A stretch of 42,819 bases of DNA, taken from contig JAJRPI010000065.1 of the NCBI GenBank assembly GCA_024280895.1, positions 1 to 42,819 of the forward strand, in the 5' to 3' direction. Position 1 is the first letter of the stretch. Each line of letters opens with the position of its first letter. Positions 29,364-34,049 of the stretch are shown in pieces. The notes under the pieces were generated by a model that saw only the letters and a program-made list of their open reading frames with translations, was not told where the DNA came from and searched no databases. The stretch is from Alphaproteobacteria bacterium. Lineage in GTDB: Bacteria; Pseudomonadota; Alphaproteobacteria; Rhizobiales; JAKIUO01. A program made the position numbers and the translations under genes.

Positions 29364-29452
29364 GTAGGGCGCAATATATTGCGCCGCTTGTCCTCAAAGG
29401 GAATGTCTGACTTTGTTGCACGCCCGCAATGGTGCAATATATTGCACCCTAC
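29364..29452. repeat. MITE-like inverted repeat, second copy of the 5469 family
   Basis: GTAGGGCGCAATATATTGCG (29364-29383) faces GGTGCAATATATTGCACCCT followed by AC (29431-29452). It shares with 5469-5558 the outer GTAGGG/CCCTAC, the TGCAAT core and the total length of about 90 bases. The left arm has GGCGCAAT...ATTGCGCC where the right has GGTGCAAT...ATTGCACC; the changes are paired, so each arm keeps its own hairpin. Confidence 0.7.
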
Positions 29453-29651: not shown

Positions 29652-29762
29652 GGGTGGGGCTTCGCTTGCGCGGACATGACGTGAAAAACAAGCACGGACA
29701 TGCGATGGAGGGGGCAGCATAGTCATGGCATGGAAAACCAACATTCACATAACGTAAAAAAC

Positions 29763-29889
29763 TGTCACCCCAGCGAAGGCTGGGGTCCATACTCCCTCGC
29801 CCATCAGATATAAAGAAGAACCAGCGGCAAAATAGAGCCTAAAATTGTCCGGTCTGGGAGTATGGATCCCAGCCTTCGCTGGGATGACG
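29763..29889. repeat. Palindromic element, TGTCAYCCC family, copy 1
   Basis: Left arm TGTCACCCCAGCGAAGGCTG (29763-29782) extends through GGGTCCATACTCCC. The right arm GGGAGTATGGATCCCAGCCT (about 29857-29876) continues TTCGCTGGGATGACG. Each arm is a hairpin around CGAAGGC, and the two arms are inverted copies. The same right arm occurs word for word at about 36507-36538. Confidence 0.75.
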
Positions 29890-30153
29890 AACTTGGTCGT
29901 CAGTTGTGGGGTTGCACTTAATTATGGATCCCCGCCAGAGCCTGTGCTCGTGAAGATGGGGGCGGGGATGACAAATGTTGCTGGTCAAGCGTATATGGCT
30001 AAATACCCTCGCCAAAATGCCGTGATGAAAAAACATTCATATTTTGGATTCTGACTGTTTTTTATGCAGTCCGAAGGGTGCTTTATGCGCCAACGAATTC
30101 ATTGTCTAAATTTTATTCAACAAAATCAACGTATTAACTTATCATTAACAAAC

Positions 30154-30168
30154 TGGCACAGCTCTTGA
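30154..30168 (+). promoter_or_regulatory. Candidate sigma-54 promoter of glnK-amtB
   Basis: TGGCAC at 30154-30159, five bases, then TTGA at 30165-30168, close to the -24/-12 consensus TGGCAC-N5-TTGC. It lies 126 bases before the glnK start. Sigma-54 control with NtrC is the rule for glnK-amtB in proteobacteria, which supports the reading. The -12 element has A in place of the consensus C. Confidence 0.6.
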
Positions 30169-30266
30169 GTTCTACAAGGCGGCAGGACTCCCATTCGGGA
30201 AAAATGCAACTCATTCGTCGTGCAAGGGCTGGAGCTGATCCGGGATCACGATGTGCAACACAGTAG

Positions 30267-30632
<366 letters not shown>

Positions 30633-30657: not shown

Positions 30658-32052
30658 ATGCGTATCAACTCTTGGACCCAGAAATTGGGGAAGACCATCG
30701 TGGGAGCAGCCGTTATGTCAGCTGTCTCCCTCATGGCCATGGAGCCGGCACTTGCGCAAGATGCCGCCAAAGCAGCTCCGGTGAGCCCCGAAGTCGCCAA
30801 TATCTTCAACACATTGCTGTTTCTCATCGGCGGATTTCTCGTCATGTGGATGGCCGCTGGCTTTGCGATGCTGGAAGCTGGCCTTGTGCGCACCAAAAAC
30901 GTTGCCATGCAATGTACTAAAAACATCGCGCTATATTCCATCGCCGGTCTCATGTACTGGGTTGTCGGTTACAGCTTGATGTACACGGGCGTCGATGGCG
31001 GTTTCCTTGGCTCCTTCACTCCCTATAGCTGGCCAGATGCTGGCAAAGGCGTTATTGCAGATGGCAGCTATTCTGTTGCTTCCGACTGGTTCTTCCAGAT
31101 GGTGTTTTGCGCAACAACCGCTTCAATCGTATCAGGAACCGTTGCCGAACGCGTCAAGCTTTGGCCGTTCTTGTTGTTCGTTGTTGTCCTCACTGGCTTC
31201 ATCTATCCCATCATTGGTGCCTGGAAATGGGGCGCAGGCTGGCTCGCATCTGGTGCCGACACAAGCTGGATCAAATCGATCGCTGGCGCTGAATTTCAGG
31301 ATTTCGCTGGTTCAACCCTTGTTCATTCAACCGGTGGCTGGGCCGCTTTGACGGGTGCCATCATCATTGGCGCACGTACTGGCAAATTCCAGTCCAACGG
31401 CATGATCCATCCAATCCCCGGGTCCAACATGGCCCTGGCGACGCTTGGTACTTTCATCTTGTGGCTTGGTTGGTTCGGCTTTAACGGCGCATCACAGCTT
31501 GCCATGGGTACCGTATCTGACGCCGCTGATGTCTCGCGCATCTTCGTCAATACAAACCTTGCCGCTTGTGGCGGTGTTGTTGCGGCCATCATCCTCAATC
31601 AGCTGATCTACGGCAAAGTCGATTTGACCTTCGCCTTGAACGGCGCGCTGGCTGGCCTAGTTGCCATCACCGCTGAACCTTTGACGCCCTCACCATTGTG
31701 GTCGATCATCATCGGTAGCATTGGCGGCATCATCGTCGTATTTGCTGTGCCACTGCTTGATCGCATGAAGATTGACGATGTCGTGGGTGCTATTCCAGTC
31801 CATCTGATGGCTGGTATCTGGGGCACAATGGCTGTACCGCTCACCAATACCGGTGCCACCTTCCTGGCACAGGCCATTGGTGTTGGCGCGGTTGCTGGTT
31901 TCGTGATCGTCGTCAGCTCGGTTGTCTGGCTGTTCTTGAAATACACCATCGGCGTGCGGCCATCGCTGGAAGATGAAGCAATGGGCCTCGATAAAGCCGA
32001 AGTTGGCCTTGAAGCCTATCCCGAGTTTGGTTCTGGGTCCCAGAAATTCTAG
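30658..32052 (+). CDS. amtB: Ammonium transporter
   Basis: AmtB conducts ammonium across the inner membrane. A cleavable signal peptide (about residues 1-34, ending EPALAQD) precedes 11 transmembrane segments. Family features are GFLVMWMAAGFAMLEAGLVR, TKNVAMQCTKNIALYSIAGL, the conserved DFAGSTLVHSTGGWAALTGA with its pore histidine, and DDVVGAIPVHLMAGIWGTMA with the second pore histidine. The 464-residue length is right for proteins with a signal peptide. Together with glnK it forms an operon closed by a terminator at 32091-32123. Confidence 0.96.
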   Translation: MRINSWTQKLGKTIVGAAVMSAVSLMAMEPALAQDAAKAAPVSPEVANIFNTLLFLIGGFLVMWMAAGFAMLEAGLVRTKNVAMQCTKNIALYSIAGLMYWVVGYSLMYTGVDGGFLGSFTPYSWPDAGKGVIADGSYSVASDWFFQMVFCATTASIVSGTVAERVKLWPFLLFVVVLTGFIYPIIGAWKWGAGWLASGADTSWIKSIAGAEFQDFAGSTLVHSTGGWAALTGAIIIGARTGKFQSNGMIHPIPGSNMALATLGTFILWLGWFGFNGASQLAMGTVSDAADVSRIFVNTNLAACGGVVAAIILNQLIYGKVDLTFALNGALAGLVAITAEPLTPSPLWSIIIGSIGGIIVVFAVPLLDRMKIDDVVGAIPVHLMAGIWGTMAVPLTNTGATFLAQAIGVGAVAGFVIVVSSVVWLFLKYTIGVRPSLEDEAMGLDKAEVGLEAYPEFGSGSQKF

Positions 32053-32090
32053 CCACAAATTCGAAAACGCTTTAAACTCGACAAGACAAG

Positions 32091-32123
32091 AAATGCCCGT
32101 CCTATCTGGGCGGGCATTTTTTT
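32091..32123 (+). terminator. Intrinsic terminator of glnK-amtB
   Basis: AAATGCCCG (32091-32099) pairs with CGGGCATTT (32111-32119) around a loop of 11 bases and runs into TTTTT, 39 bases after the amtB stop. A strong rho-independent terminator. Confidence 0.9.
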
Positions 32124-32474
32124 ATCTCCATACTGAATATCTGCCGGGTAAACAGGTCATTTTATGCACAATTATTGTGGGTAATTATCGACAACAAAAA
32201 ATAAACACTATTTGATCACAACACTAATTTCGCACTAAAGAAATGAAATATCAGACTTTTAGTGCGCACAACGCCAAACTTCACAAGGAAAAAACTTCAT
32301 TTACTAATAAATTCTTGCCAACCCACTACATGCGACATATTGTAACAGTAGGGAATGTCGGCAAGGACCCCCAAATTTTTAGACTTGCTGGGCCCTTGTT
32401 GTTTTGCGTATCTCGACATGCCTTATTTAAAAGACTTCGCGTACTGCGGGTATGAGAAGGAAAGGAGAGCTACG
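32124..32474. other. Intergenic region with a hairpin and a small palindrome
   Basis: About 350 bases between the amtB terminator and the small ORF at 32475. CACAATTATTGTG at 32167-32179 is a 13-base palindrome with a one-base centre and could be a repressor site. CGCACTAAA (32231-32239) and TTTAGTGCG (32258-32266) form a perfect 9-bp hairpin with an 18-base loop and no T-run. The rest is AT-rich. A promoter for the small ORF must lie here. A 70-codon frame covering it from 32355 is longer than the credible gene. Confidence 0.45.
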
Positions 32475-32567
32475 ATGAAATCGGATAACTGGTTAATACT
32501 TTGGTCAATCTCCGGACTATTCGCGACTATTACAGCCGGATATGTGCTGGCGAGCCTAACCTACTAA
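32475..32567 (+). CDS. 30-residue single-helix membrane peptide
   Basis: ATG 32475 is preceded by AAAGGAGAG (GGAGAG at 32464-32469, 5-base spacer), one of the best ribosome binding sites in the window. The peptide is MKSDNWLILWSISGLFATIT then AGYVLASLTY: a short charged start followed by one transmembrane helix. A perfect 12-bp terminator begins 26 bases after the stop, so a stand-alone transcript is well marked. It sits between two ammonium transporter genes. Small membrane peptides of this size often modulate a larger membrane complex (KdpF, AcrZ and CydX are known examples), but this one resembles none of them to my eye. Function is unknown. Confidence 0.6.
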   Translation: MKSDNWLILWSISGLFATITAGYVLASLTY

Positions 32568-32592
32568 CTACCGTCCCCCCGACGCAGAATAA

Positions 32593-32634
32593 TGGGTGGC
32601 ATCCAACCAACACGGATGCCACCCACTTTTATTT
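32593..32634 (+). terminator. Strong intrinsic terminator after the small ORF
   Basis: TGGGTGGCATCC (32593-32604) and GGATGCCACCCA (32614-32625) form a perfect 12-bp stem with a 9-base loop, followed by CTTTTATTTT. It isolates the small ORF from the downstream amt gene. Confidence 0.88.
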
Positions 32635-32668
32635 TCACTCGCCCCAAAGCCCCGTATTGAAGATCACC

Positions 32669-32683
32669 TAGCACAATTTTTGA
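32669..32683 (+). promoter_or_regulatory. Weak sigma-54-like site before second amt
   Basis: TAGCAC-N5-TTGA has the same layout as the glnK site (TGGCAC-N5-TTGA), 137 bases before the amt start, but one G of the invariant -24 GG is replaced by A. It may be a weakened promoter or chance. Ten consecutive C (32701-32710) lie just downstream. Confidence 0.25.
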
Positions 32684-32819
32684 TGCCTCTGGTTGCCCGG
32701 CCCCCCCCCCTCTTTCATAAAAATCCTTTGCGTTTTACGCGCTAAATCCCCTAAAACAATCAAAAACCATAAGAATTTCAAGAAAAAATAATGATCGTTT
32801 GAAGGGGAGTTATCATTTC

Positions 32820-34049
32820 ATGGAGAAGACTGCGGAATCATTGCTAGGCATTGATGTGTTCTTTGTATTGTTGGGAGCCATTCTGGTTTTTGCCATGCAT
32901 GCCGGGTTTGCGTTTCTTGAGGTCGGCACGGTGCGACACAAAAACCAGGTCAATGCACTGGTGAAAATCCTTGTCGATTTCGCCGTCTCTACAACCATGT
33001 ATTTCTTCATCGGTTACACCATCGCCTATGGGGTGAATTTCTTTTCTGATGCTCAATCGATCTCTGGGGGCGGTGAGGGCTTTGCCAATCAAGGCTTGAG
33101 CCTCGTCAAATTCTTCTTTCTGGCGACCTTTGCCGCAGCCATCCCCGCCATCATATCGGGTGGCATTGCTGAACGCGCCCGGTTTTGGCCACAAGTCGCC
33201 GCAACCGCTCTTATTGTTGGCTTCGCCTATCCTTTATTGGAAGGCGTCGTCTGGAACGGCAATTACGGGCTGCAGGACTGGATGAAAGCGACCTTTGGCC
33301 ATCCATTCAGAGATTTTGCCGGCTCGATTGTCGTCCATGCCTTTGGCGGTTGGATCGCTCTGTCTGCTGTTTGGGCCCTTGGCGCGCGTCAAGATCATTA
33401 CAATAGCAAAGGCAAAGTCGTTGCCATCCCCCCCTCTTCCCTGCCCTGGCTGGCCCTTGGCTCCTGGCTTTTGTGCATTGGCTGGTTTGGCTTTAACGTC
33501 ATGACCGCCGGCTCGGTCAAGGATATTTCAGGGCTTGTTGCGCTCAATTCCTTGATGGCGATGGTTGGCGGCATATTGTCGGCCCTCATTGTTGGCCGCA
33601 ATGATCCAGGCTTTATTCACAATGGCGCGCTGGCTGGCCTCGTCGCTGTTTGTGCAGGTTCCGATATCATGCACCCCATCGGCTCGTTCATTGTTGGCGG
33701 CGTCGCAGGTGCGCTGTTCGTTTATCTGTTCCAGAAATGCCATAATGACTGGAAGCTTGATGACGTGCTCGGCGTCTGGGCCCTGCATGGCATGTGCGGA
33801 TTATGGGGTGGCATCGCGGCCGGTATTTTCGGCCTCAAAGCACTTGGTGGTCTGGGCGATGTGAGCTTTGGCGCACAGCTCATGGGATCGCTTGGAGGTG
33901 CCGCCTTTGGTGGTCTGGCAGGCTTGCTGATCTATGGGGAACTCAAACGCCTTGTCGGCATTCGCCTCACGCCCGAAGAAGAGCGGATGGGCGCTGATCT
34001 CGCCATCCATAAAATCAGCTCAACTCCAGAGCATGATATTACGAGATAG
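32820..34049 (+). CDS. Second ammonium transporter
   Basis: A 409-residue Amt family protein without the cleaved signal peptide of AmtB. I choose ATG 32820 (AAGGGGAG 10 bases upstream); the TTG at 32799 adds only MKGSYHF. Motifs include GAILVFAMHAGFAFLEVGTV, RHKNQVNALVKILVDFAVST, AAIPAIISGGIAERARFWPQ, FRDFAGSIVVHAFGGWIALS with the pore histidine and LDDVLGVWALHGMCGLWGGI with the second. It diverges clearly from the first amtB (for example VGTVRHKNQVNAL against AGLVRTKNVAMQC), so it is not a recent duplicate. It has no glnK partner of its own. Other Amt-family roles (methylammonium, ammonium sensing) are possible. Confidence 0.92.
   Translation: MEKTAESLLGIDVFFVLLGAILVFAMHAGFAFLEVGTVRHKNQVNALVKILVDFAVSTTMYFFIGYTIAYGVNFFSDAQSISGGGEGFANQGLSLVKFFFLATFAAAIPAIISGGIAERARFWPQVAATALIVGFAYPLLEGVVWNGNYGLQDWMKATFGHPFRDFAGSIVVHAFGGWIALSAVWALGARQDHYNSKGKVVAIPPSSLPWLALGSWLLCIGWFGFNVMTAGSVKDISGLVALNSLMAMVGGILSALIVGRNDPGFIHNGALAGLVAVCAGSDIMHPIGSFIVGGVAGALFVYLFQKCHNDWKLDDVLGVWALHGMCGLWGGIAAGIFGLKALGGLGDVSFGAQLMGSLGGAAFGGLAGLLIYGELKRLVGIRLTPEEERMGADLAIHKISSTPEHDITR

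Follow-up and report, generated by a model that had tools for sequence, protein, structure and literature searches.

The 42,819-nt window, by which we mean the whole stretch of DNA analysed, carries behind its glnK-amtB genes a gene for a 30-residue membrane protein with a single predicted helix. This gene, known so far from one genus only, was retained beside glnK-amtB against two different genomic backgrounds, and its product is a plausible candidate partner of the ammonium transporter AmtB. Our best explanation, offered tentatively, is that the gene would yield, from a short transcript of its own, a one-helix membrane protein specific to this lineage, which may sit with and tune the marine-subtype AmtB as its presumed partner. 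The features of the region are given below by window position; the four other genomes of the genus are denoted G001 to G004.

30154–30169, forward strand: sigma-54-like site TGGCACAGCTCTTGAG, 5' of glnK (pattern scan, two mismatches allowed)
30294–30632, forward strand: glnK, PII protein (NCBIfam PII models at E 3.9e-49, yet below their cut-offs; 92–100% identical in the genus)
30658–32052, forward strand: amtB, 'probable ammonium transporter, marine subtype' (PF00909 at E 2.3e-95; TIGR03644 at 598 bits, cut-off 514)
32094–32117, forward strand: amtB terminator from the terminator scan (aligned counterparts in G001, G002 and G004; a 19-pair stem in G003)
32231–32266, forward strand: inverted repeat CGCACTAAAG...CTTTTAGTGCG, past the amtB terminator and 5' of the promoter-like block, weaker in G001
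32315–32343, forward strand: promoter-like block TTGCCA-17-TATTGT (sigma-70-like scan; 1 found, 1.7 expected from shuffles)
32406–32420, forward strand: conserved block GCGTATCTCGACATG of the predicted 5'UTR (identical in 5/5 genomes; one exact copy per genome in the five genomes)
32456–32474, forward strand: Shine-Dalgarno region GGAAAGGAGAGCTACG with flanking bases, a GGAAGGAAAGGAGAGCTACG-like block identical from GAAGG onward in 5/5 genus genomes
32475–32567, forward strand: gene for the predicted 30-aa one-helix membrane protein (start ATG 32475, stop TAA 32565–32567)
32593–32625, forward strand: 12-bp terminator-like stem-loop (32593–32604 pairs with 32614–32625; starts 25 bases past the stop)
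32799–34049, forward strand: second ammonium transporter gene, amt2 (PF00909 at E 5.4e-83; start codon uncertain)

The open reading frame at 32475–32567 on the forward strand encodes MKSDNWLILWSISGLFATITAGYVLASLTY. Its ATG is abutted by the Shine-Dalgarno sequence AAGGAAAGGAGAGCTACG, which bears out the strong ribosome binding site of the original prediction. The product has a Kyte-Doolittle hydrophobicity of 1.64 across 18 residues, and AlphaFold2, working from a 3-row alignment, modelled it as a single helix of residues 2–29 (mean pLDDT 90.7, pTM 0.44). Among 2000 dinucleotide-shuffled versions of the 746-nt intergenic region, one contained an ATG frame of 20–70 aa with a 5-base Shine-Dalgarno sequence and hydrophobicity equal to that of the peptide, rising to 4 of 2000 when the Shine-Dalgarno requirement was relaxed to four bases. 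This chance level, together with the 30-codon frame and its one predicted helix, upholds the isolated 30-residue membrane peptide proposed from the sequence. A longer in-frame version from an ATG at 32355 (70 aa) was rejected, as the open frame varies by species (71, 84, 45, 45 and 53 codons). The peptide had no family match in Pfam (E 1e-3), PHROGs or NCBIfam (both at E 1), and a search of PDB sequences returned no chain at E 10. With one transmembrane helix and fewer than about 50 residues, it has the build of the small membrane proteins that modulate transporters; like them it is conserved, here as a frame under coding selection, and its translation is predicted.

The frame was present in all five genus genomes examined with 83–100% identity (100% in G002 and G004, 97% in G001, and 83% in G003). 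Between our sequence and that of G003, the most diverged species, 23 substitutions were distributed as 4, 4, and 15 over codon positions 1, 2, and 3 (P = 0.002), and the peptides aligned without an indel and with the stop kept. The corresponding dN was 0.12 and dS was 1.72, the latter being saturated and estimated on 30 codons. These comparisons show a frame under coding selection. The distance from the amtB stop to the peptide start was 422, 421, 408, 406, and 429 nt in our genome, G002, G004, G001, and G003, respectively. Loss of the frame from relatives that keep the flanking genes, which the original prediction had named as the outcome that would tell against it, was not seen within the genus. 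It should be noted that the G002 copy is split across two overlapping contig ends and hence is listed at two places (L001 1460–1601 and L015 1–130, with an overlap of ~129 nt). This assembly break within the peptide gene would fit near-identical copies from co-occurring strains that have only this conserved stretch in common.

The gene had been described as lying between two ammonium transporters. This holds as the layout of the window, and amt2 was found in four of the five genus genomes, but it does not hold as an association, since G003 keeps the peptide gene with no second amt found. The amt2 protein matched only AmtB in the G003 genome, which is 88% complete; loss of amt2 from G003 is likely, with that completeness leaving room for a copy elsewhere in the genome. 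On the 11.5-kb contig of G003 the gene order is msrB, glnK, amtB, peptide, and heavy-metal P-type ATPase. The window ORFs of at least 80 aa that matched this contig were confined to the glnK-amtB stretch, apart from amt2 through its kinship to amtB. The comparison shows the predicted peptide gene together with glnK-amtB in two unlike genomic settings. Since G003, where a second amt was not found, retains the peptide beside glnK-amtB with other flanks, the association comes down to glnK-amtB. Four of the five genomes have one common surrounding, so this linkage counts as two observations rather than five.

The search for relatives of the peptide was extended to sets of 61 relatives, 397 and 297 genomes of the order, and 385 genomes of the class, which overlap and in which the genus is the sole representative of its family. 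Strong matches were confined to the genus in every set. The peptide matched 14 of the 61 relatives at E 10, nine of them outside the genus (best outside E 0.085). A 3-row profile matched 126 of the 397 genomes at E 1, including 121 outside the genus (best outside E 0.0156), and 7 of the 385 genomes at E 0.02, our own included, where the best other match (E 0.004) covered 15 residues only. We took the weak out-of-genus matches as chance, since amtB or glnK lay within ~1.5 kb at none of 46 weak loci; a 47th locus inspected, L015, is the genus's own copy. An RNA model comprising the start region, ORF, and stem found 5 of the 297 genomes, all of the genus. The one match among plasmids (48%, E 2) lies inside a TraM-domain gene and was rejected.

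In 80 named amtB loci, tblastn of the peptide gave no match at E 1e-5, while glnK was directly upstream of amtB in 62. The synteny with amt genes that the original prediction proposed to look for in relatives was seen as a glnK-amtB-peptide order kept in 5/5 genomes of the genus; beyond the genus, where amtB is common, the searches did not find the peptide. That amtB and glnK appear widespread without the peptide argues against AmtB as its partner. We also scanned the 900 nt 3' of amtB (fewer in L037, L082, and L090) for same-strand, hydrophobic ORFs of 20–60 aa with a Shine-Dalgarno sequence of 4 or more. As a raw count, four of the 80 loci (L033, L066, L070, and L076) had such an ORF, and by eye none of these positional analogues resembles the peptide. 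A weak full-length tblastn match in L024 (E 3.7), 67 nt behind amtB, was rejected because it has a TTG start only, runs to 116 aa, and crosses the start of the next amt.

When AmtB was placed in a FastTree tree, its closest named rows were alphaproteobacterial (Parvibaculaceae, Hyphomicrobiales), at a distance of 0.57 or more, and we take the host to be an alphaproteobacterium accordingly. A second amt within 1.5 kb of amtB was found in 8 of the 80 named loci, with gaps of 173–511 nt between the aligned parts versus 746 nt in the window. These second Amt genes, on the same strand after a marine-subtype amtB, belong to the alphaproteobacterial loci L023, L024, L034, L035, L040, L047, L053, and L059. 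Their occurrence suggests that the amtB-amt2 pair predates the genus and that, on the simplest view, the peptide unit originated or came in between these two older genes. The second amt of G001 (L153, G001:C179:10094-11338) contains one in-frame TAA and is either a pseudogene or an assembly error.

The peptide gene probably forms a transcription unit of its own. The amtB terminator at 32094, listed by the scan and with counterparts in the genus, agrees with the proposed shielding from upstream, and the predicted transcript of ~280 nt is in line with the unit of under 500 bases that had been claimed. The promoter-like site at 32315 has 9 of 12 consensus bases, and its block contains TGCGACATATTGTA and TCTTGC, identical in 5/5 genus genomes. 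The aligned site of G003 was absent from the list of the same scan at threshold, and another site nearby was listed instead. Given this, and since 1.7 sites are expected by chance, the call of a sigma-70-like promoter for the peptide is tentative. Near the place aligned to 32231–32266, G003 has a different inverted repeat.

The 3' stem had been described as a perfect 12-bp terminator 26 bases after the stop. The stem itself is real: the 61-nt stretch containing it folds at -25.7 kcal/mol (z -7.5), a stability equalled by none of 200 shuffles. However, the distance is 25 bases, the U-tract is poor, and the terminator scan that listed the amtB terminator did not list this stem. All of its cells (100%) were paired and 3 of its 12 pairs were changed on both sides, a number of double changes that 13 of 500 shuffles reached over the whole structure, the sequences being few. 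In the other six helices (1–6) of the predicted fold, no pair was changed on both sides.

Control of glnK-amtB may differ from that of the peptide. The sequence CTGGCACAGCTCTTGA, which is identical upstream of glnK in 5/5 genus genomes, fits the -24 part of the sigma-54 promoter consensus. The -12 element has GA instead of GC, and the sigma-54-like scan of the window gave 26 such matches against 22 expected by chance. If the sigma-54 site is right, glnK-amtB would be nitrogen-controlled and the peptide would be under a different promoter.

According to our best explanation, the ORF would be translated from a short mRNA of its own, transcribed 3' of the glnK-amtB operon, and its helix would insert in the inner membrane with a short N-terminus that is probably inside. 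The helix would then pack against the trimer of the marine-subtype AmtB, and this packing may tune how stable AmtB is, how it transports, or how GlnK contacts it, as single-helix proteins do for other transporters. Modulation of an Amt protein, put forward in the original prediction, is consistent with the findings as a candidate role. The promoter-like site of the peptide is unlike the sigma-54-like site of glnK-amtB, so the peptide would be made on its own schedule and not solely under nitrogen limitation. Several observations besides the phyletic spread of amtB weigh against AmtB as the partner. GlnD was above cut-off in all five genus genomes, so the usual GlnK control of AmtB would need no extra helper; the separate terminators argue against co-transcription with amtB; and with two contexts in one genus only, the neighbours may be passengers. 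An extended form of our explanation is unlikely, in which a bacterial AmtB of the marine subtype has the peptide as its dedicated membrane subunit, forming the third member of the glnK-amtB module in one alphaproteobacterial lineage, with its messenger under RNA-level control and with uptake set by cytoplasmic GlnK and by the helix in the membrane.

The nearest parallel for ammonium is sP36 of the archaeon Methanosarcina mazei, which is linked with both GlnK and AmtB, has 61 residues and no transmembrane helix, and is reported mostly from organisms lacking GlnD (PMC10714827). The peptide resembles sP36 in being a small protein linked with GlnK and AmtB of ammonium uptake, here by gene position. 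Unlike sP36, it has 30 residues and one helix, and its genus has GlnD in 5/5 genomes; by these features, the peptide is not an sP36. Among bacterial examples in two further papers, AcrZ, KdpF, MgtS, MgtR, MgtU, and WatS1 are small membrane proteins that act on transporters (PMC10710835, PMC11539335). The peptide would likewise be a tiny protein acting on a large membrane transporter, and differs from the AcrZ, KdpF, and MgtS group in that it has no sequence match to any solved chain and that its partner is putative. In the available parts of the same two papers, AmtB is listed with GlnK alone and no single-helix partner of Amt is named. Among titles and abstract openings in the literature, none named a small membrane protein of bacteria as a partner of Amt. 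CydX, as outlined in PMC6005532, has a similar size (~30–40 aa) and a single hydrophobic helix; it is a subunit of cytochrome bd, and no oxidase gene was noticed beside the peptide gene. The peptide is a new orphan of a familiar kind, namely the small transporter-linked membrane proteins. Should it prove to bind AmtB, a bacterial ammonium transporter would have a partner embedded in the membrane; the sources consulted describe bacterial AmtB as controlled through GlnK alone, and the single small protein they give as a partner is soluble and comes from an archaeon. Binding would also make the peptide a clear example of a new small protein being added, within one lineage, to a module that is old and widespread. 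Failing that, it would simply join the other orphan small membrane proteins.

Alternatively, the gene may encode a genuine one-helix membrane protein that serves a partner other than AmtB, for instance a sensor kinase, a protease, or a respiratory complex, and its adjacency to amtB would then be a matter of position only. We consider this possible but doubtful. It would agree with the promoter-like site of the peptide's own, with terminators on both sides, and with the second amt being dispensable for the peptide's presence, and many small membrane proteins hit targets encoded elsewhere (MgrB and SafA on PhoQ, among the cases in PMC11539335). However, the gene has held its place behind glnK-amtB despite differing outer flanks, which favours AmtB.

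Nucleotide conservation across the unit comes in islands, which are the promoter-like block, GCGTATCTCGACATG, the ribosome binding site with the first eight codons, and the 3' stem. At the start of the ORF, 24 nt (eight codons) are identical in 5/5 genomes. Our sequence and that of G004 differ synonymously at 2 of the 27 degenerate codons with the same residue, against an expectation of 42% from amtB (P = 8e-5), and the comparison with G001 gave 2 of 26, where amtB predicts 24% (P = 0.04). By these comparisons, conservation in the first eight codons and in parts of the 5'UTR exceeds what coding alone would require. Such conservation would suit a dual-function transcript, serving either as the peptide's mRNA and a regulatory RNA, or as an mRNA whose translation is strongly controlled via the 5'UTR and the start region. 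The low synonymous change against G004 and G001, the identity of the first 24 nt and of the 5'UTR block, and the double-sided changes in the terminator stem point in this direction. In contrast, the whole-ORF synonymous change against G003 is ordinary (12 of 26 same-residue codons changed versus 139 of 276 in amtB), and helices 1–6 lack double-sided changes. In a crude set of 11 pairing tests, the start regions of glnK, amtB, and amt2 did no better than random local segments (fraction 0.66–1.00), and Rfam gave no match at the peptide locus. The small-RNA alternative of the original prediction therefore has nucleotide-level conservation in its favour and the negative crude pairing test against it; we judge the dual-function transcript improbable.

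Type I toxins are small and hydrophobic and have a long conserved leader, and their ribosome binding site is usually sequestered. The peptide unit resembles them in size, hydrophobicity, and leader. A toxin silenced by an antisense RNA is nonetheless very improbable here, given that no minus-strand sigma-70-like site was found in 31900–33300 (by a sigma-70-like scan only), that the gene occupies a fixed single-copy place in 5/5 genomes instead of scattered copies, and that its strong ribosome binding site is open, unlike the usual sequestered kind. Slighter still is the chance of a leader peptide attenuating the downstream amt: a short ORF and a terminator do precede amt2 in 4/5 genomes, but G003 keeps the peptide with a metal P-type ATPase as the next gene, so a regulated gene is not downstream everywhere, and purifying selection acts on residues along the entire helix. 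A chance ORF without product would explain the short length and the lack of a family match, yet is hardly credible beside conservation in 5/5 genomes of the genus, coding selection, and the 1 in 2000 shuffles.

Elsewhere in the window, the sole Rfam match at gathering score was a Cobalamin riboswitch (RF00174, 5688–5914, 107.5 bits). The intergenic stretch at 29760–29900 contains pairs that look like repeats, CAGCGAAGGCTGGGGTCCA and TGGATCCCAGCCTTCGCTGGGATGACG, and near 29370 there is a palindrome, GCGCAATATATTGCGC.
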